DNA from: Candidatus Fermentibacterota bacterium
GTDB lineage: Bacteria; JAFGKV01
DNA: 43,342 nucleotides
Direction of reading: 5' to 3'
Assembly (NCBI GenBank): GCA_030620115.1
Contig: JAUXFG010000009.1
Coordinates: 1-43,342, forward strand
Shown here: positions 7,520 to 43,088 of the stretch, one piece after another
Layout: every line of letters starts with the position of its first letter
Position numbering within the stretch: position 1 is the first letter of the stretch
Position numbers and translations under genes: made by a program
The notes under the pieces: model-generated
Database searches by the model: none
Told to the model about the DNA's origin: nothing
What the model saw: only the letters and a program-made list of their open reading frames with translations

Positions 7520-7665
7520 GTTTGTGGAATTTTCGATAGAGCAGAATTAGGGGTTGACGGGGGTACGGCATTTCGCCTTACATCCTCACCTAGTGGATTC
7601 TCTCACTCTGAGGCCTGGTGCCTCATATCTCGCAGTGGTGGTCACCGATGCGAGGGGAGACCGCA

Positions 7666-8613
7666 ATGCGTCAGAATCGTAGATCACGCCCACATCAGAC
7701 CGGCATGGAGATCCATAGGAAGATTACCGCCCTTTTCGCCGCCACGTCGATTCTTCCGGTATTGCTGCTCATCTATGTATCGATTGTCTATGTGGCTCCT
7801 CATACACATCCCGGAGCGGCCTTTTTGGCTTTGCTGGTGGCGTGCGTCCTGCTTTGCCTGGCGGGTTCCTGGCTGGTCATGAGGATGGCGCGTCGGCTTG
7901 GAGAGATCAGCAGATCGCTTTCGGGAGCGGCATCCGGGGTGACATCCGGTGGCGGTGATGGGTTGGCGAAGCTGAGCTCTGCGGCGAAGCTGATGAAAGG
8001 AAAGGTCGAACAGCAGAGAAGCGAGATCTGGCAGCTGAAACAGCAACAGTCTGTGCTCAAGCTTGAAATCCATAAGGCACGCGGTGAACTGGACAAAGCT
8101 GATTCCGCAGAGGTGGTGCCGGGAACCTGGGATATCGAGGGCTGGAGAGAATACTTGGCCCAGGAAGTGGAACGATCAAAGCGATACCATAAGCGGTTTT
8201 GCGTCTTGTGCGCGAAAATCCCGAACTACGAAAGTCGTATGGGCACTATCCCCAAGAGCGAGCATGACGAGGTCTCACGGGTGGTTACCGACAAGATGAG
8301 GTCTCTGGTACGCAACAGCGACCTCGTGGCGGGCTCAGCGCAGAAGTATTTCGGGATCATGCTTCCCGAGACGGATGGGGAGGGGGGGAGACAAGTTGGC
8401 TCTAGGCTTGCAATACTGTTCCCCGAACATGCGTTTGTTGCACGAGGCGCGCTCCAAGGGTTGAGTTTTCCGCTGTGCGTGGGCATTGCCACCTATCCAT
8501 TCGATGCCCGAGATCCAAAAACGCTGCTGGAACGCGCGCGGACTTCCCTCTCATTCGCAGTAAGACGTGGTGGTGGATCAGTGGCCGTGTATGACCGCCA
8601 CACCATGGAGTAG
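7666..8613 (+). CDS. membrane protein with degenerate GGDEF domain
   Basis: The product is 315 aa from ATG 7666, chosen for the GGGGAGA Shine-Dalgarno 5-12 bases upstream (earlier in-frame starts at 7618 and 7648 lack one). There are two membrane helices (residues ~20-43, ITALFAATSILPVLLLIYVS, and ~50-73). A short linker and a coiled coil (KGKVEQQRSEIWQLKQQQS...) follow, then a ~160-aa GGDEF-like fold. It keeps AQEVERSKRYHKRF, NSDLVAG, FGIMLPET, VGIATYPFDA and LLERA. The signature GG(D/E)EF is replaced by GSAQKYF, so diguanylate cyclase activity is unlikely. It has a paralogue at 18740-19726 with the same layout. It heads a run of envelope genes. A regulatory or scaffold role is inferred. Confidence 0.75.
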   Translation: MRQNRRSRPHQTGMEIHRKITALFAATSILPVLLLIYVSIVYVAPHTHPGAAFLALLVACVLLCLAGSWLVMRMARRLGEISRSLSGAASGVTSGGGDGLAKLSSAAKLMKGKVEQQRSEIWQLKQQQSVLKLEIHKARGELDKADSAEVVPGTWDIEGWREYLAQEVERSKRYHKRFCVLCAKIPNYESRMGTIPKSEHDEVSRVVTDKMRSLVRNSDLVAGSAQKYFGIMLPETDGEGGRQVGSRLAILFPEHAFVARGALQGLSFPLCVGIATYPFDARDPKTLLERARTSLSFAVRRGGGSVAVYDRHTME

Positions 8614-8663
8614 ATGGGCTGACGAGAGCGGCAGGCGAACAGCGTATCAAACCATCTTATTCT

Positions 8664-9905
8664 ATGGCGGCTATTGGGGCCGCACTCCCTCTCTTTTTCG
8701 CCATCTGCGCCTTGTCATGTAGTGGCACGCAACGATCTGAGACACCCAGCTCGTTTATCCCTTCTCCCCCCGAGATGACGATCTATCCCTTGGCGCCTGC
8801 TCCCACGTGGAGCGATATCCTCGTCCGATCCCAGACATTAGCCGGCATGCTTGCGAACCACGGTGTTTCCAGGGCAGATGTCGGTCTGATTACATCACTC
8901 CTCTCTACGAAGGTCGATCTGCGCAGATGTTTACCTGGGACCGCGATCAGAGTATACGAGGATTCGCTGGGGAGCACTCAGAAGTTGGTCTATGTGGAGC
9001 AACACAGAATGGTCGTGGCCGATCTTGCCCAGGTGCCGCCGAAAGTTTATGAAGTCCCGCAGGTTCCGGTTCGTCGGTTAGCTCACCTACATGGAACAGT
9101 GCAAGACAATCTCTATTCGTCCATGAGGGCTGTGGGGGCGTCCGCGCGGCTGATTCTGGCATTTGCCGACATCTTTGCCTGGGAGGTCGATTTCCTGACC
9201 GAGATACGGCGTGGCGACGAGTTCTATGTTGTGTATGAAGAAGCCATGGGCAACGGCGACGAGCCTGAGCCCGGGGTAGTACTCGCTGCCCTGTACGTGG
9301 GTGAACGTGGAGAGAGGACCGCGATTCGCTACGTTCCCCTCGATGCCAAGCCTGCGTACTTCGACCTCCACGGCGAAAGCCTCGTGAGAGCCTTTCTGCG
9401 ATCGCCGCTGAGCTTCACCAGGATAAGTTCGCGGTTCAGCTTCAGCAGAATGCATCCCATTCTTCGGGTGTCGAGGCCGCATCTTGGTGTTGATTATGCC
9501 GCGCCAACGGGCACCCCTGTGGTCTCCGTTGCTGATGGTAGGGTGATCTTCGCCGGCTGGAAACGCGGCTTTGGGAGGACTGTCAGCATACGTCATGCCG
9601 GGTCGTGTGAGACTCAGTATGCTCATCTATCTCGACTTGGCAAAGGCATAAGGAGGGGGACAAGAGTTTCGCAGGGTCAGCTGATGGGGTTCGTTGGCTC
9701 AACAGGCCTTTCCACGGGGCCCCACCTTGACTTTCGCTTCAAGAAGGCCGGGCGGTGGGTGAATCCCTTGACCGTGGAGAGCCCAAGGGAAGCCCCCCTT
9801 CGCGAAGCAGAGCTTCCCGATTTCGCTCCAGTAGCATCTATGTATGCGGCCGTGATGCACGACTATCCCCATCGATGGGTGGAGGCGGCGCTGGGAGTTC
9901 GGTGA
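8664..9905 (+). CDS. M23-family (LytM-like) peptidase, probable lipoprotein
   Basis: The product is 413 aa. The N-terminus is hydrophobic and has a lipobox (ALS-C19), but no positive charge precedes the core. A non-standard CTG start at 8619 would supply one. Residues ~60-250 are a helical, LysM-free N-terminal region of the OapA/MepM type. Residues ~275-375 are the peptidase domain: RPHLGVDYAAPTGTPV (first zinc His and Asp), TQYAHLS (catalytic His) and TGPHLDFRF. In the last motif the usual HxH is HxD, so the third zinc ligand would be Asp. The expected role is cleavage of peptidoglycan cross-links in the periplasm. It lies between the GGDEF-like protein and the Lol permeases. Confidence 0.8.
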   Translation: MAAIGAALPLFFAICALSCSGTQRSETPSSFIPSPPEMTIYPLAPAPTWSDILVRSQTLAGMLANHGVSRADVGLITSLLSTKVDLRRCLPGTAIRVYEDSLGSTQKLVYVEQHRMVVADLAQVPPKVYEVPQVPVRRLAHLHGTVQDNLYSSMRAVGASARLILAFADIFAWEVDFLTEIRRGDEFYVVYEEAMGNGDEPEPGVVLAALYVGERGERTAIRYVPLDAKPAYFDLHGESLVRAFLRSPLSFTRISSRFSFSRMHPILRVSRPHLGVDYAAPTGTPVVSVADGRVIFAGWKRGFGRTVSIRHAGSCETQYAHLSRLGKGIRRGTRVSQGQLMGFVGSTGLSTGPHLDFRFKKAGRWVNPLTVESPREAPLREAELPDFAPVASMYAAVMHDYPHRWVEAALGVR

Positions 9906-18739: not shown

Positions 18740-19726
18740 ATGGGATCGGGACGAGTGGTGCGCCCGATGGAGATGGGTAGACAGATTCAGCACCAGCTTA
18801 TCAGTATCTTTGTGGCGGCCTCCTTCCTGCCCGTTTTGTTGTTGCTCTATGTGAGTCGCGTCCTGCTGCGCTCCTCAGAGGGAGGGGGCCTCACTGCTGC
18901 TGAACTGAACGCAGTAGACAGTCTGCTGGTGGCCAGTCTCGTGCTCGCGACTGCGGGGTTTGTGCTCATGCACAAGACCACGAATCGTGTTCTCGACATG
19001 ATCTACTCGCTACGCAGAGCTATCGACCCAGGAAATGGCCATACGCATAATAACCTGGAGTTACTGAGCAGTGCGGCACGCCGGTTGAGACAGAAGGGAG
19101 GGCTGCAAGAGGGGGAAGTTCTCTCACTGAAAGACGAAATCAAAGTGCTGGAAGAAGAATTGGAGGATGTACGGAAGCAACTGGGCATTCATGCCCCTAT
19201 GCCTCGCATCACTGGGCGTTGGAACGCCCATGGCTGGGAGTCATATCTGGCACAGGAAATCGAGCGATCGAGACGATACAAGAAAGAATTTTCAGTCCTC
19301 TTCATGGAGCTAAGCAACTATTCCGAGATCACTCGTTCTCTGCCGAAGAGGGAGAGCGAGTACATCGGTCGCGTCGTGTCGGAGAAGGCCGGGGAGTTGA
19401 TCCGATCGAGTGACCTCATTGCCGGTTATCCGGACCAATATCTTGTGCTGCTTCTGCCCGAAGCGGGTTCGGAGAGCTGCATGAAGGTAGCGCATCGAAT
19501 GGCGGCGAGCCTTACCCAGGAGAGCTTCGAGTCCTTGAGCGGCGGCAGTCTCCATTTCAAGGTCCGCATCGGATATGCCAGCTACCCCTTTGATGCGATG
19601 GACGCAGGGACGCTTGTCGAACGCGCCCGTGCGGCATTGGCCTATGTAGCGAAGAAAAGAGATGGGATTCCGGTGGCCGCGTACAATAGCAAACTCATGG
19701 AGTATACACCCTTCACCGATACCTGA
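18740..19726 (+). CDS. membrane protein with degenerate GGDEF domain, paralogue of 7666-8613
   Basis: The product is 328 aa, starting at ATG 18740 behind AAAGGGGGTG. The layout matches the 7.7-kb paralogue: two membrane helices (LISIFVAASFLPVLLLLYVS, then a second near residue 55-75), a coiled coil (GEVLSLKDEIKVLEEELEDV) and a C-terminal GGDEF-like fold. The fold keeps AQEIERSRRYKKEF, SSDLIAG, YLVLLLPEAG, GYASYPFDA and LVERARAAL. The GG(D/E)EF site reads GYPDQYL, so synthesis of c-di-GMP is unlikely. A receptor or scaffold role is inferred. It is convergent with the membrane-protein gene on the other strand. Confidence 0.75.
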   Translation: MGSGRVVRPMEMGRQIQHQLISIFVAASFLPVLLLLYVSRVLLRSSEGGGLTAAELNAVDSLLVASLVLATAGFVLMHKTTNRVLDMIYSLRRAIDPGNGHTHNNLELLSSAARRLRQKGGLQEGEVLSLKDEIKVLEEELEDVRKQLGIHAPMPRITGRWNAHGWESYLAQEIERSRRYKKEFSVLFMELSNYSEITRSLPKRESEYIGRVVSEKAGELIRSSDLIAGYPDQYLVLLLPEAGSESCMKVAHRMAASLTQESFESLSGGSLHFKVRIGYASYPFDAMDAGTLVERARAALAYVAKKRDGIPVAAYNSKLMEYTPFTDT

Positions 19727-26467: not shown

Positions 26468-27514
26468 CTATTCCTTGCCTGCAAAATGCCTTAGCTCACT
26501 GAACTCAACCATCATATCTAAATTCCGGGGGGTGAAGACCTTTCCTTGAGTCGCCATTATGAGCTTCTTCATGTCTTCACGTCTGACGCCGACGCCCCGA
26601 CCGGCGATACAAGCAATGATTTGAAAGCGGGGGGTACGATGGGGTTCGCCTTCAATGCTTATCGAATGAAGGTGCTGAATACGAGTGACTTTATCGCGGG
26701 CAGTTCCGTCATCTTCTGTCAGTTTCGCTTCAATGACAACCCGAGGATTATACTCGCTTGGAATTACGAAATCAGGAGCCTGGTCAAAGCCTGGGATGCG
26801 CTCCGCTCTCTTCGTCTTGCGATAGCTCACTCGGCACCTCGTAAGCACATCCTCGACTGCGGACTCGAGGCTGTCACCAATGAGTTCACTTACTGAATCC
26901 CGGTGTGCAGCAAAGGGACGACCAAGAAATCGCTCATAAAGCAGCATCGCATAGGGAACTCCAAGCTGTGCCACACTCCTGAGGCTGACGGATCCATCCT
27001 GAGTATCGTCCTTCTGAAGTCGATGAAGCGTCTCCTTCCCTCCTTCTGGCACGCCCTCTTGCAGAAGACCACAAGCTGCGGTGATCAAGGCTTTCACGCG
27101 CTCGACGGTTGTTGGATTCATCTTCAAAGATATCAAAGGCGCCATTCGTATCTTTCGATCCAGACTTCTGACGTACCCCTGCGTGACAGCAACGCCGGTC
27201 CGCTGAGAGGCGATGTAGGCCCACTCGGGAGGCGTCAAGCCGAGGATAGAGCGTACGACTACCAGCGCAATTGGCACTTCGAAAACCACCGACTCGATTT
27301 TCGCAGGAGAGAAGTCATGAAATGCGTCTGTTGCCTTTTTCAGTGCCTCATATCCTTCCTCGAAATCACGATACTCGACGAACCCTTTCCCCTTAGGCAT
27401 CACAAGAAATTCCGATTCCAGGCAGGAGAACACCGCAGTCACGAAGGAATCTATATTTGCCTCAATCTCTGACGGGGACGCTTCAAAAGGCAATTTCATT
27501 GTGGATGCCCTCAT
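26468..27514 (-). CDS. PD-(D/E)XK restriction-endonuclease-like protein
   Basis: The product is 348 aa. The start is ATG 27514, behind GAGGAG. It overlaps the methylase gene by 32 bases, implying coupled translation. Residues 1-200 are helical and unfamiliar. The C-terminal third holds a PD-(D/E)XK core: QAPDFVIP (Asp248), then VVIEAKLTEDDG (Glu262, Lys264), TRIQHL and FQIIACIAG. The methylase neighbour makes a restriction endonuclease the most likely role, cutting unmethylated DNA. Recognition site and subtype cannot be read. I do not recognise the N-terminal half, so this could be a little-studied restriction family. Confidence 0.7.
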   Translation of the reverse strand: MRASTMKLPFEASPSEIEANIDSFVTAVFSCLESEFLVMPKGKGFVEYRDFEEGYEALKKATDAFHDFSPAKIESVVFEVPIALVVVRSILGLTPPEWAYIASQRTGVAVTQGYVRSLDRKIRMAPLISLKMNPTTVERVKALITAACGLLQEGVPEGGKETLHRLQKDDTQDGSVSLRSVAQLGVPYAMLLYERFLGRPFAAHRDSVSELIGDSLESAVEDVLTRCRVSYRKTKRAERIPGFDQAPDFVIPSEYNPRVVIEAKLTEDDGTARDKVTRIQHLHSISIEGEPHRTPRFQIIACIAGRGVGVRREDMKKLIMATQGKVFTPRNLDMMVEFSELRHFAGKE

Positions 27515-29687
27515 ACTTGTCTTTCTCCTCTAATACGAAGGAGAGTTGCCCAACCCTTGATGTGGTTAACATGTCGCGAAGGTGTAGGGAAACACTCTCA
27601 ATGCCCCCAAGAGCAGTGATTTCCCGGGAAACGCGACTAATTCGATCTTGAATTTCAAGCGCCCGATCCCAATGAAGTCGAAGCCGCCATATTGCTAGCC
27701 GAATCAGATGTCCGTAAGCTATGCATCGGAGATCCCCCGCCGAGACTTTCATTCCTGCGTCTTCCAAGCTTTCGGAATCAGCTCTAACCAGTGCTGAGAT
27801 TTCTTCTGATGAATCGACAATCCAACGTCTTGGAATCCTCCCGGTGGAACGGCATACAAAAACAGTATCCACGATGGAAGAATCCGTACCATGGATGTGA
27901 ATCGATCCACCCATCTCCGCCGGGCAGGGAAACGAGGCAGTGCAGATGAGTTCGGCATCAAGGAGGGCCACTGCGATGGGCAAATATGCCTCGAGCTTGT
28001 TATGATGATATGTGAACACAAATGGGTGTCCCCGTTTCAAAGATCTCGCCATTCTGCAATAAACATTGGACAGTCCTGCCGCAAAATGCTCAAGCCCCCT
28101 GTCCATGGAGAGGTTGCCCGTCAGCTCCTCCGGATTTCGTGTTGATGGCCTGGAGAACTCGGGATTACCATCATGAACCAATCTTCTCAGCCAAACATAA
28201 CAGAAGTCCATCAGTTCGGCGTACTGAACGTTTCCGAAGTATGGCGGATCGGTCAGAACTGCATCGAGACTTCCCTCGGGCAAATCGAGAGAGATCGAAC
28301 TCTCGCAACTTATCTCAGCTCTCTTCACAGGACTTCTGGAATCGCGAGTCCGGCCAATCCATTCGCCATCGATGTAGATCCGCTGTTTTTTCTTGCCAAC
28401 GAACACGTGCTCGAATGGATGGCGACAGTATCGTTTGGCCTTTCGATATTTCTCGATGATGTTCAGCCATCCCCCGCTGCCAACGGTATTACCGGCCCCA
28501 TTGAGTATCCCGAGGAGGTTTGATTCACACTGTATCAGGCCGACCGGAAATCCATGTACTGAAAAGATGTCAAGAGACTTCAGTGCCATCTTATCATATC
28601 GGCACAACATGTTTTGATAGCGCAACAGGTCGGATAGATTGGTGGCCAGAGCATTGTGGAGGCGCGCATCTCCCAGGGTGGAAATATGCCTGCAGCTCAG
28701 TTCGAGGCCCAATAGCTGGCGCGAATTGAACATCTCCAGGTACTTGATGTATCCCCATCGATGCAATCTGTCCGATTCATCCCCAGGTAGGATTTCATCA
28801 TCAGGGACAAACTCGGCGTCCGATGTCCGCCACTTGCGGTCGGCTTCAGCGAATTTCTGTAGATCTTCTGGATCGGGTTTCTTGAAAAACCGACCTGTGT
28901 GGTCTGGCTTGCATATTGGGCAGTAATACTCGATCGCGAACATACGATGACGGAGGGGACCAGAGGAGCGCCTTGGGTAGGAATTGACGTGACTACAAAA
29001 GGGACACACACATCGGCCATTTCTCGCCGGACCACGCACACTCAATTTGCGTGAGCATGAGGAACATTTGCCTGGTTGTTTTCTATCCGAGCGTTCATTG
29101 AGATCGCCGCAATTGGGACAGATGAAAACATTGAGAGGATGTCGTTTATCCTGCGCCAGGAGGTATCCGGGAAAGAGGTCAATGCTCTCTCCGCACTTTG
29201 AGCAACGAAGGGTCTTTACCCAGATGAAATACTTCACCTGCGCATCAGGGGATCGGCATTTGGAGCAGCGCGTTCGGTAGAGGGCGCCTACCTCTGTCCG
29301 GAGGTGATGCACGAGGGCACTCGTAGCCTTGGTATACTCCTCTAAGTCGATGTCTTCGATCTCCTCTCGTACTATCCAGTAGGCCATCGGATTGATATCA
29401 AAGCCCAGTACATCACAGCCAAGTCGATTGGCCTCCAAGACTGGAGTGCCTCCGCCCATGAATGGATCTGCGACTACTACTCCTTTGAGATCGTTCGATT
29501 GATAGAACGTCTTCTGGAGAGAATCATCGACGAATTCCGACAGGATAATGCCGCGAAATAGAGTCCCTGGCCTCCGAGCAAACCATTTATGGACCGCGAT
29601 TATCGGTCTGTAGTTCTGCTGGATCTGTTTCTCTCTCAGTGCCATTCGGGCGACAAAACTGACGTCGAAGCCTCTCTCGATGGACAT
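27483..29687 (-). CDS. zinc-ribbon adenine-specific DNA methylase (COG1743/DUF1156-like)
   Basis: The product is 734 aa from ATG 29687 (AGGATA upstream). An earlier in-frame start at 29777 adds 30 atypical residues. The start, ALREKQIQQNYRPIIAVHKWFARRPG, is characteristic of the family. SAM-binding motif I is VVADPFMGGGTPVLEANRLG (~residue 75). Residues ~160-290 contain six CxxC pairs (CSKC, CSKC, CPNC, CSSC, CPFC, CPIC), i.e. about three zinc ribbons. The catalytic motif IV is TDPPYFGNVQYAELMDFCYVWLRR (~residue 480). It should methylate an exocyclic amine, probably adenine N6. With the overlapping nuclease it forms a likely restriction-modification unit. Confidence 0.85.
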   Translation of the reverse strand: MSIERGFDVSFVARMALREKQIQQNYRPIIAVHKWFARRPGTLFRGIILSEFVDDSLQKTFYQSNDLKGVVVADPFMGGGTPVLEANRLGCDVLGFDINPMAYWIVREEIEDIDLEEYTKATSALVHHLRTEVGALYRTRCSKCRSPDAQVKYFIWVKTLRCSKCGESIDLFPGYLLAQDKRHPLNVFICPNCGDLNERSDRKQPGKCSSCSRKLSVRGPARNGRCVCPFCSHVNSYPRRSSGPLRHRMFAIEYYCPICKPDHTGRFFKKPDPEDLQKFAEADRKWRTSDAEFVPDDEILPGDESDRLHRWGYIKYLEMFNSRQLLGLELSCRHISTLGDARLHNALATNLSDLLRYQNMLCRYDKMALKSLDIFSVHGFPVGLIQCESNLLGILNGAGNTVGSGGWLNIIEKYRKAKRYCRHPFEHVFVGKKKQRIYIDGEWIGRTRDSRSPVKRAEISCESSISLDLPEGSLDAVLTDPPYFGNVQYAELMDFCYVWLRRLVHDGNPEFSRPSTRNPEELTGNLSMDRGLEHFAAGLSNVYCRMARSLKRGHPFVFTYHHNKLEAYLPIAVALLDAELICTASFPCPAEMGGSIHIHGTDSSIVDTVFVCRSTGRIPRRWIVDSSEEISALVRADSESLEDAGMKVSAGDLRCIAYGHLIRLAIWRLRLHWDRALEIQDRISRVSREITALGGIESVSLHLRDMLTTSRVGQLSFVLEEKDKYEGIHNEIAF

Positions 29688-30180
29688 GTGCTCTATCCTT
29701 TGACCAGGATGATATGATTCGGAATGCAATAAGGCCCATAGATGGCGTGAAGCGTGCTGGAGATCAAGTGAACTCAATCATGGAGCAGATAAGGCTCGAC
29801 ATCTTGGGGATGTTGGTTTCGAACGTGCATAAACCTGAGATCTCTCAAAAATCTGAACTGTCGTCTCCAACTCCGCATCTCAGAAATCACGACCAATAAA
29901 CAAGACAATGGACGCCTTCGTCCATATAAAGGCCATCACTGCCGAGCTCATTCCTGTCTGACGATCGCACGTCGACCAAGCTATGCCGACACTATCAACA
30001 GGGAAACGCTTGAGGAGTTCGTTTCATGCTCTGACCTGGCAAAGAACGAAGTCATTGGCTTGAGAATAGAGAATAGGATTGTAGCTTTTCGGAGTTGAGA
30101 GGCGCTCGTCATGGATCTGATGGATTCTCTCCCTCGGTTCAGTTTGTATGATGGAGGAACGTCCGACCGCCGCCGGATCG

Positions 30181-40167: not shown

Positions 40168-40189
40168 TCTGGTATATGAGGAGGAAGCC

Positions 40190-42049
40190 ATGAATAGTGA
40201 ACGAATACTCGCTATCGATGATGAGCCGGAGGTTTTGCAGATAGTCAGCAGGTGCCTCGAAGAGCATGGCTATGAGGTGCTTCAAGCTGCCGATGGGGAG
40301 GAGGGGCTGGAAGCGATCCAATGCGAACGCCCTGATCTCATCATCAGCGACATATTGATGCCGAAAATCGATGGCTTTGAGCTCATCCAGATGCTCAGAG
40401 CTGATCCCCTTATCGGCGCCACTCCTTTCATCATCTTGAGCGGGAGAGGCGAAGCAGCGGACCAGATAAGGGGGTTGGATCTCGGTGCAGACGACTACAT
40501 AACAAAGCCATTCGACTTCTCGGTGCTTGTGGCCCGGGTGAGGGCGTTGCTTCGTCGATCGGCAGTGCTCAAGAAGAGAACCTCCCCCGCTCCCGAAGGG
40601 CCATTTGCGTCGGAAGGTCTCGAACAGTTGGCCGGCTATAGGTTTGAGAATTTCGTTCTGGGAAACGGAAACCACCTTGCATATGAAGCGGCGAAAGGTG
40701 TGGCTGAAAAACCTGGCTCACGATTCAACCCCCTGTTCTTGTATGGAGAACCTGGCAGAGGAAAGACGCACCTGATGTGCGCGCTGGCAAATGATGTCCA
40801 TGAAAAAGATAGCAGCATCAAGGCCCTCTACCTGACTTCTCAGCTTTTCAGCGATCAAATCCTCGAAGCTTACGAGAATAGGCGTGTACACGAGCTATGG
40901 CAGGCATATTTGGAATCAGATTTGCTCATCATCGACGACATCCAATTTCTTGCCATTTCACCAAGCCTTCAGTCCGTGGCTGCCGGCTTTCTCGCCGAAA
41001 TGTATGCCCAGGACAAACAGATAGTGATATCCAGTGACAGGAGGCCTGAAGAGCTCCAAACCATCACATCTGAGATCATTGAAGGGTTTGCGCTTGGTGT
41101 GGTTATCAAGATGGATCAACCTGACGCGACCCTGCGATCCATGATCCTGCGGACCAAGGCAAAGCAGAACAACTGGCCTGTTGACGACCTCCTTCTTGAC
41201 TACCTTGCGAACAAGATCGAGTCCGATGTTCGGACGCTCGAGGGAATTGCGAAGAAACTCGTGGCCCTCAAGACACTGAGAGGAGTATTGCTCAATGAGG
41301 AACTCGTAGATGATCTCGTGAAAGAGGTTACCGAATTGGAGATCCCGGAAGGCATCCGTGTGGAAGGGCGGGGAGTTTCGGCCGAAGCTTCGTGCGCAGT
41401 TCACGAGTTGCATGATGAAGCGTCTGAGGTGGTTCAGGAAACTGAGAAAGTAACCGGCTTGATCGAGGAATGCTCAATCGATCCAAAGCCTGCAAGGATT
41501 TGGGGGCTGCCGGAAGAAGTCGCCGCAGAGATTCCGAGTACGGGAGCAGAGATTGTGGTGGTGTTGGGGACTTCCGGTGCGTTAGTCACCGATGTAATCG
41601 ATGCTCTGGGGGGAACACGAGAGGAAGTGGCGCTTATCCCAGAAGGCAAACGATGGGCATACATGGTCTTGAGTGAACAAACCGGCAAAGAGTGGATTCT
41701 GCTCGGATCAAACTGTTGGGGCGAAGGATGTTCGCTTTCGGCTGCGATTCAGGGGAATAGGCCTCCCGTCTTCCTTATAGTCCTCGATAGCCGTACTCTG
41801 AAAATACAGAATGCTCGAGCCTTAGTATCCTCGGCAGGAGAACAGAACCGCATGGCGGTGATTACGGTAGGAACCATCGTGGATACCTACGCGAACAAGA
41901 GAGACATGACTATTCTTTTGACGAGTACACGGAGGCTTTTCAGGGTTTCCCCTCAGGTCCCGATTCTTCTGAGCTCTGCGGTCAATGTTGATGAATGCAG
42001 GAGATGGCTCAAAGCCGCGCTCGGATCTGAATTCAGGGGAGAGAAGTAG
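40190..42049 (+). CDS. response-regulator receiver / DnaA-like AAA+ / degenerate GTPase-like fusion protein
   Basis: The product is 619 aa from ATG 40190 (GAGGAGG 6 bases upstream). Residues 1-125 are a CheY-like receiver: acidic Asp10/Asp11, phospho-acceptor Asp54 (IISDILMP), Ser84 and Lys106 (ITKPFD). Residues ~147-365 follow DnaA domain III: YRFENFVLGNGNHLAYEAAKGVAEKPGSRFNPLF in outline, Walker A GEPGRGKTH (186-194), Walker B LLIIDD (245-250), sensor I ISSD, and sensor II in SDVRTLEG (Arg348). DnaA box VII (RLRSRF) is IIEGF here, so the arginine finger is absent. No DnaA domain IV HTH follows. Residues ~450-612 alternate strands and helices like a Ras-type GTPase (IVVVLGTSGALVTD, VFLIVLDSRT, MAVITVGTIVD, PILLSSAVNVDEC), but the P-loop lacks GK[ST]. 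A phospho-regulated, DnaA-interacting or signalling ATPase is inferred. Confidence 0.8.
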   Translation: MNSERILAIDDEPEVLQIVSRCLEEHGYEVLQAADGEEGLEAIQCERPDLIISDILMPKIDGFELIQMLRADPLIGATPFIILSGRGEAADQIRGLDLGADDYITKPFDFSVLVARVRALLRRSAVLKKRTSPAPEGPFASEGLEQLAGYRFENFVLGNGNHLAYEAAKGVAEKPGSRFNPLFLYGEPGRGKTHLMCALANDVHEKDSSIKALYLTSQLFSDQILEAYENRRVHELWQAYLESDLLIIDDIQFLAISPSLQSVAAGFLAEMYAQDKQIVISSDRRPEELQTITSEIIEGFALGVVIKMDQPDATLRSMILRTKAKQNNWPVDDLLLDYLANKIESDVRTLEGIAKKLVALKTLRGVLLNEELVDDLVKEVTELEIPEGIRVEGRGVSAEASCAVHELHDEASEVVQETEKVTGLIEECSIDPKPARIWGLPEEVAAEIPSTGAEIVVVLGTSGALVTDVIDALGGTREEVALIPEGKRWAYMVLSEQTGKEWILLGSNCWGEGCSLSAAIQGNRPPVFLIVLDSRTLKIQNARALVSSAGEQNRMAVITVGTIVDTYANKRDMTILLTSTRRLFRVSPQVPILLSSAVNVDECRRWLKAALGSEFRGEK

Positions 42050-42271: not shown

Positions 42272-42300
42272 TTGACCTGAGTGGCCGCCTGGTGTATCAT
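42272..42300 (+). promoter_or_regulatory. promoter of the Phd/VapC module
   Basis: TTGACC (42272-42277) and TATCAT (42295-42300) are 17 bases apart, each five of six to consensus. The antitoxin ATG is 34 bases downstream with GAGGAGGGG as Shine-Dalgarno. Confidence 0.6.
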
Positions 42301-42333
42301 GAGGCCACAAGCTTACGCAAGAGGAGGGGAACC

Positions 42334-42627
42334 ATGCAGACCGTTGGAGTGCGACAACTGAAAGACCATTTGGCTGAGTACTTGCGCGCCGTGCGCCACG
42401 GAGACGTCGTTCTGGTGACCGTGCGCGGGGAGCCCACTGCCCGCTTGGTCCCAGTCTCCGTGGGGCGAAAGACAGCACTGCCACCCGAAATCGAAACGCG
42501 CATGTGGGAACTCGCCGCAGAGGGCTTCCTGGTCTGGAACGGAGGAGGCATTCGGGTTCCCGAGCCCGTAGGTTCCAACCAAGGTCCGGCATTGCTTAGT
42601 GACCTCGTGGTTGAGGATCGGGATTGA
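42334..42627 (+). CDS. Phd/YefM-family antitoxin
   Basis: This 97-aa protein starts at ATG 42334 behind a strong GAGGAGGGG. The N-terminal half is the Phd/YefM DNA-binding fold: MQTVGVRQLKDHLAEYLRAVRHGDVVLVTVRGEPTARLVPV in outline. The C-terminal ~45 residues form an acidic tail (LLSDLVVEDRD) that would occupy the toxin active site. It overlaps the PIN toxin gene by four bases. Autorepression through the promoter at 42272-42300 is expected from the family. Confidence 0.85.
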   Translation: MQTVGVRQLKDHLAEYLRAVRHGDVVLVTVRGEPTARLVPVSVGRKTALPPEIETRMWELAAEGFLVWNGGGIRVPEPVGSNQGPALLSDLVVEDRD

Positions 42628-43088
42628 TTGTCTACGCTGACACAAGCGCCTTGGTCAAGCTGTTTGTGTCAGAGGAGGGTTCGGAAGCGACCAGAAACAT
42701 GCTTCAAGGGGTCCATGTGATGGGGACCGCTATCTTGGCTCGGGCCGAAGTGGGAGCAGCCCTGGCCCGAGCTGCGAGAAGGGGCATCCTGTCTGAAAAG
42801 GATGCGTTGGAAGCCCGGCGAAGACTAGAACTCGTATGGCCCACGTGGATTCGCATTGCCGTGGACGAGGCGCTAGTCCTTCGCGCAGAGACACTTGCGT
42901 GGAGGCATGTCCTGCGAGGATATGATGCCGTTCACCTGGCGGCAGCGGCTGTCTGGCAGGAAAGGATCGGTCAACCTGTCACAGTGGCTACTTTCGACAA
43001 GGAGTTATGGTTGGCAGCCCGCTCAGCCGGGTTGCGGGTCTGGCCGCAGCAGACGAGCAACTCCGAGGGCCATGGGGGCAAGGCCTGA
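42624..43088 (+). CDS. VapC-like PIN-domain toxin
   Basis: This 154-aa protein starts at TTG 42624 inside the antitoxin stop (TTGATTG). It has the PIN opening MIVYADTSALVKLFVSEEGS (first Asp, then Lys), the conserved ILARAEVGAALARA (Glu), YDAVHLAAA (Asp) and TVATFDKELWLAA (Asp). All catalytic acidic positions are present, so it should be an active RNase controlled by its neighbour. It belongs to a different PIN subgroup from the toxin at 32.5 kb. The tail (SNSEGHGGKA) is low-complexity. Confidence 0.87.
   Translation: MIVYADTSALVKLFVSEEGSEATRNMLQGVHVMGTAILARAEVGAALARAARRGILSEKDALEARRRLELVWPTWIRIAVDEALVLRAETLAWRHVLRGYDAVHLAAAAVWQERIGQPVTVATFDKELWLAARSAGLRVWPQQTSNSEGHGGKA

Follow-up and report, generated by a model that had tools for sequence, protein, structure and literature searches.

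A family of proteins in Candidatus Fermentibacterota combining a receiver, a DnaA-type AAA+ domain and a predicted Ras-fold pseudoGTPase domain

The window, by which we mean the whole stretch of 43,342 nucleotides analysed here (contig JAUXFG010000009.1 of assembly GCA_030620115.1, a Candidatus Fermentibacterota bacterium), encodes a protein composed of a receiver, a DnaA-type AAA+ domain III and a predicted Ras-fold pseudoGTPase domain, without domain IV. This order of domains was confirmed. The AAA+ domain of DnaA is commonly regarded as a part of replication initiators and of regulators close to them. For the present protein we rather favour another role, that of an NtrC-like AAA+ ATPase, descended from DnaA and gated by phosphorylation, which acts on proteins and not on origins, with a process of the envelope or of the pilus as the likeliest one served.

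Domain architecture

The open reading frame lies on the forward strand, from an ATG at 40190 to a stop at 42047-42049 (40190..42049, 619 aa plus stop), and a Shine-Dalgarno-like GGAGGA was read 5′ of the ATG (40180..40185, +). Pfam placed Response_reg and Bac_DnaA in the protein, and nothing C-terminal of Bac_DnaA. Comparisons were made over a set of 12 full-length proteins conserved across three genomes, four each in the source genome and in G001 and G002, which belong to the same phylum and are both of genus g2.

The CheY-type receiver occupies residues 6-118 (40205..40543, +; Pfam PF00072, E 9.5e-30, and site table). The acid pair, phospho-Asp, Thr/Ser and Lys of PF00072 response regulators are all present (D10 D11, D54, S84, K106); D10, D11, D54 and K106 are invariant across the 12 homologues, and position 84 is S or T. 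Its sequence matches in the PDB were OmpR/PhoP-type receivers. The DnaA-type AAA+ core follows at residues 150-306 (40637..41107, +; PF00308, E 1.4e-43, PDB alignment to 1l8q/3r8f and 8btg, site tables), and then a lid with the sensor II Arg348, reaching to about residue 384 (41108..41341, +; the TIGR00362 match extends to residue 382, the helices of the model to 384). Walker A reads GEPGRGKTH (residues 186-194) and Walker B IDD (residues 248-250). Invariant in 12/12 proteins are GxGKTH, both Asp of Walker B and the Arg of sensor II, whereas the x positions of Walker A vary and DD is preceded by I or V; these motifs accompany the PF00308 match, as in a DnaA-type domain III. Matches among PDB sequences were domain III of B. 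subtilis (8btg/8bv3), T. maritima (2z4r) and A. aeolicus (1l8q/3r8f) DnaA; identity to solved DnaA structures amounts to 32-37% across about 230 residues. An assignment to IstB/DnaC was rejected, PF01695 scoring 34 bits against 149 for DnaA.

The DnaA equivalog model TIGR00362 matched the AAA+ part alone, residues 145-382, with 224 bits for a cut-off of 343.9, and the match ended at position 340 of the 437 in the model. Pfam gave no match to the DnaA C-terminal domain in the window protein, which is consequently left without the domain IV helix-turn-helix by which an initiator recognises DnaA boxes. The ssDNA-contact residues of initiators are not kept either. At the positions aligned to those of A. 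aeolicus DnaA, which we take to be K188, R190 and T191, the window protein has S257, S259 and L260, and all 12 proteins read S-x-S-[LM] with both Ser invariant, at positions that also vary among initiators, T. maritima for example (PDB alignment). Finally, the arginine finger of box VII, as in Hda, is missing from the window protein: box VII reads IIEGF, and Gly299 stands where A. aeolicus DnaA has its finger Arg. The earlier note, made from the letters of the window, had described this last loss for the one protein that it treated; in the family it concerns 9 of the 12 members, and Arg is found in this column only in the C65 protein and in the G1_C20/G2_C199 pair.

A linker, predicted to be disordered (residues ~385-433, 41342..41488, +; pLDDT below 50 at 384-433), leads to the C-terminal domain (residues ~434-613, 41489..42028, +), for which Pfam has no matching family. 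We predict with good confidence that it adopts a Ras-like G-fold, based on a structure model, Foldseek, a profile search and the site table. The AlphaFold model made from the 12 sequences (pLDDT 85.5, pTM 0.85) has its elements in the order of the Ras G domain, b1-a1-b2-b3-a2-b4-a3-b5-a4-b6-a5, the match being judged by this order. The best 50 Foldseek matches in the PDB were FeoB, Rheb, Rab, Ypt32, Ras/Rap/Rho, GIMAP or pre-60S assemblies, where the matching chain is presumably the GTPase Nog1 (E values starting at 1.6e-6, TM near 0.5), and a profile search of PDB sequences gave GTPase Der as best match (E 0.012). The former P-loop reads GTSGALVT in the window protein. Because none of the 12 proteins has the GK[ST] P-loop, DxxG or NKxD, we consider the domain a pseudoGTPase. 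Sequence comparisons were less telling: hhalign of the C-terminal profile with single GTPases returned no match, in a single-sequence comparison that is weak and in which the receiver control was likewise negative. A resemblance to COG2229/SRPRB GTPases in particular was not borne out by the sequence, the support extending to the Ras-like fold only.

The main features listed in the earlier note thus hold: a 619-aa fusion of a complete receiver (Asp54, Lys106) to a DnaA domain III with Walker A, Walker B and sensor II, no domain IV, and a C-terminal part with Ras-like element order in the models, without GK[ST]. The note had advised a structural comparison of the three segments, and saw its reading at risk if the AAA+ part were of the IstB/DnaC clade, if two genes had been merged in the assembly, or if the C-terminal region were a known non-GTPase domain. 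Models of the full protein and of the C-terminal domain were compared with the PDB; the first objection falls with the bit scores, the third with the predicted Ras fold, and the second is taken up with the family below.

In the full-length model the relative placement of the modules is unreliable (pTM 0.46). With this model the best Foldseek matches were DnaA, and the receiver-AAA+ regulators NtrX, NtrC4 and LuxO were returned as well. The matches to these regulators, together with the order receiver, AAA+, third domain, would fit an unusual NtrC-type transcription factor. We give this explanation a very small chance: the AAA+ domain is that of DnaA and not of the sigma-54-interaction family, with no Sigma54_activat match in the window protein up to E 1, and the C-terminal domain is predicted to be a G-fold, not an HTH. 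A DNA-binding regulator of this type was accordingly rejected.

The G-fold itself invites a comparison with motility systems, in which the pseudo-G domain would mimic MglA and bind roadblock proteins, the receiver controlling polarity. RomR, a response regulator tied to MglA/MglB, is a precedent (PMC3441718), and G001 has an MglA-like GTPase beside roadblock genes, which are found in G002 too. We nevertheless judge such a polarity or motility adaptor improbable, as the source genome, 98% complete, contains no roadblock/LC7 gene and yet keeps all four proteins; hhalign, here again a weak single-sequence comparison, also showed no relation in sequence between the C-terminal domain and the MglA of G001.

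Paralogues, neighbouring kinases and distance to dnaA

The window protein, which the earlier note took singly, is one of four full-length paralogues in its genome, the others being C65 (55% identity to it), C116 (48%) and C253 (44%). In total the source genome has 12 Bac_DnaA domains in 11 proteins. Only one, on contig C78, has domain IV and is a true DnaA, and four are DnaA proteins bearing MshEN (C14a, C14b, C14c and C283). C200 is shorter, with receiver and AAA+ only. The C160-type paralogue (L016:5932-7452), kept in all three genomes, has a receiver-like domain without the phospho-Asp, a DnaA AAA+ and a proline-rich tail. In each of G001 and G002 there are four proteins of full length, with one like C200 and one like C160. 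In a tree, the window protein pairs with C65, and the C126/C168 proteins are closest to the two (98/98); C253 was matched to C218/C384 by common gene neighbourhood, and the tree leaves their join open.

The recurrence in three genomes, with four members each, indicates that the fusion is old and real. That it would come from an assembly or gene-calling error, or from a decaying gene, has a negligible probability: apart from the draft state of the genome (296 contigs), which probably stems from an uncultured organism, nothing was found to favour it, and the 12 full-length homologues have no internal stops and keep their active residues invariant. A merger of two genes during assembly was rejected on this ground.

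Outside the phylum the architecture was not seen. Among 386 genomes searched, the C-terminal domain was present in the three genomes of the source phylum only, and a full-length profile, with the best three candidates per genome scored, detected no receiver-DnaA fusion in the 383 others, where the listed matches start at or near the AAA+ part. No further fusion was found in 44 genomes, about 41 of them new, from the phyla of G014, G107 and G131, a search that matches weaker than E 1e-72 would escape. Altogether the fusion occurred in 0/424 other genomes, an absence that applies to these samples. Open-access papers, searched with few terms and mainly by titles and abstracts, described neither a receiver-DnaA nor an MshEN-DnaA fusion, consistent with the remark in the earlier note that no system of this architecture was known to it.

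A histidine kinase gene lies directly beside 7 of the 12 family loci, in three orthogroups. It is immediately upstream in all three genomes for the C253 orthogroup, the kinase and its partner in the C253 operon being at L062:6564-7760 and 7764-9686; for the C78/C49 pair (G001/G002) a kinase with a cNMP-binding domain is immediately downstream; and kinases flank the C126/C168 pair, a hybrid one carrying Hpt directly upstream and a second, convergent one on the other side. With 28-36 HisKA genes per genome and an estimated 3,700 or so genes, the chance of such an adjacency is about 2% per locus. No adjacent kinase was found at the window, C65 (near a contig end), C116 and C20/C199 loci. The neighbouring kinase for which the earlier note recommended a search is therefore a property of the family and not of the window copy; the closest relatives of the window/C65 pair are those beside the hybrid kinases.

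For dnaA, another neighbour to be sought, adjacency was not observed. One orthogroup in one genus comes within some 13 kb of it: in both genomes of g2, the C126/C168 genes are about 12-13 kb away (L057:2189-17831, L221/L050; G002:C168, G001:C126), with yidC-, jag- and TldD/PmbA-like genes in between. This proximity may be simple synteny. It could also be taken, along with an AAA+ domain that is unmistakably of the DnaA clade and the Arg retained at the finger position in 3/12 members, as a sign of replication control, the proteins being Hda-like, entering mixed AAA+ assemblies with DnaA and tuning initiation under two-component command. We find this unlikely. The finger Arg is lost in the other members, including the window protein, and the ssDNA-contact residues in all; with four paralogues in each genome, and two shorter types also fused to a receiver, there are many proteins for a single initiation switch; the dnaA contig of the source genome has no family member; and the nearest relatives by domain III are not DnaA (see below). 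A phospho-switch, for replication or for another AAA+ task, had been suggested beforehand, and its replication branch is weakened by these observations, so that we prefer the other task.

The window also contains two similar GGDEF-family proteins (7618-8613 and 18740-19726, +), probably not active cyclases since their motifs are degenerate (GSAQKY and GYPDQY). A DUF1156-type DNA methyltransferase is found beside a 348-aa protein without Pfam match (26468-29777, -), which may be its restriction partner, and a Phd/YefM antitoxin and PIN-domain toxin pair is located just 3′ of the Rec-DnaA gene (42298-43088, +). A defence system was considered and rejected, as PADLOC matches were weak and partial only.

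MshEN-DnaA proteins as probable sister group, and a pilus operon

A tree of 70 DnaA-type domains III, from which Hda itself was left out, included 18 receiver-fused domains. These group together (98/93), then join the MshEN-DnaA proteins C14b and C283 (99/99), and the whole stands apart from all canonical DnaAs. The MshEN rows are long-branched, and the sister grouping is therefore good but not final. MshEN is a known type of c-di-GMP receptor domain (PMC5013675), and the copies in C14c and C283 come near the 24-residue motif published there, without following it exactly.

The three C14 proteins belong to a type IV pilus operon (L009, contig C14, 2623-19244), C14b lying inside it. The operon comprises a prepilin, a PilD-like peptidase, the three MshEN-DnaA proteins (983, 409 and 1993 aa), an MshEN-like-only protein and PilB/GspE; prepilin, PilD and PilB were identified by reading the sequence. 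The 1993-aa protein combines two DnaA AAA+ domains with a long coiled coil. The part with the peptidase and the MshEN-DnaA proteins is kept in G001 (L063). The four loci with the C-terminal domain are not themselves in pilus operons, and the process in which they take part is thus deduced from their sister proteins. An envelope machine is likely because these carry MshEN instead of the receiver and are in some cases encoded within the pilus operon; we infer that envelope or pilus function is more likely than control of the origin.

Other DnaA-type AAA+ proteins were encountered in more distant genomes. In G014, a 2132-aa protein (L198:6958-13356, -) whose N-terminus resembles a DnaG-type zinc finger contains numerous TPRs and ends in a DnaA AAA+; long relatives occur in the same family (G162, G301). 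Two proteins of G107 (L200:893-2998 and L201:924-3017) each carry a tandem pair of DnaA AAA+ domains and lack domain IV. In G210, a non-initiator DnaA-AAA+ protein is followed by two stand-alone CheY-like receivers (L204:2293-5470), possibly an unfused version of the same pairing. DnaA engines combined with MshEN, TPR or tandem AAA+ may form a wider class.

Proposed mechanism and comparison with known systems

For a phosphorylation-gated ATPase acting on proteins, we propose the following scheme. A histidine kinase or Hpt protein would phosphorylate Asp54, altering the packing of the receiver on an AAA+ ring or filament by the logic of the NtrC class. ATP-dependent oligomerisation, possibly between different paralogues, would then expose the pseudo-G domain, which would serve as a docking arm to bind, recruit or remodel a protein partner. 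Mixed oligomers are possible, since finger-bearing and finger-less copies coexist in every genome. The machine would no longer contact DNA, and would probably help to build or place an envelope machine, for instance a type IV pilus or a secretion system.

More tentatively, these proteins could represent a new class of signal-transduction ATPases, in which the DnaA AAA+ engine, freed from replication in several deep bacterial lineages, is combined with exchangeable inputs (receiver, MshEN, TPR arrays) and runs the phospho- or nucleotide-controlled assembly of envelope machines, this phylum having added a pseudoGTPase docking domain and four paralogues with kinases of their own. If so, the engine of the initiator would be a module open to general reuse, able to keep its ATPase, lose its contact with DNA and come under two-component control, and response regulators would gain a new type of output. 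Given the finger-bearing and finger-less copies and the neighbouring kinases, the idea can be tested on purified proteins.

Among known systems, DnaA itself (TIGR00362, PF00308) shares AAA+ domain III with the family, which differs in having no domain IV, no basic ssDNA-contact residues and usually no arginine finger, and in adding a receiver in front and a pseudo-G domain behind. A DnaA-type AAA+ without domain IV is also found in Hda and other short DnaA paralogues, but not the two fusions; at the N-terminus, where Hda has its clamp-binding motif, the window protein has a receiver, and in the present family the finger is mostly lost and the relatives by domain III are MshEN-DnaA proteins, in a tree without Hda. 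NtrC, NtrX and LuxO offer the same succession of receiver, AAA+ ATPase and third domain, and probably a similar phospho-gated assembly, whereas our AAA+ clade is that of DnaA, with no match to the family contacting sigma-54 and no DNA-binding domain. The MshEN-DnaA proteins (C14a/b/c and C283) likewise place a signal-input domain on a DnaA-type AAA+, with C14b and C283 as sister group of this AAA+; their input is however MshEN, and they have no pseudo-G domain. RomR-MglA/MglB (PMC3441718) links a response regulator with a Ras-like module, but through separate proteins, with an active GTPase and no AAA+. Lastly, the pseudoGTPase domains of p190RhoGAP (PMC5593906) provide a case of a Ras-fold without nucleotide binding inside a larger protein, although in a eukaryotic and unrelated context.
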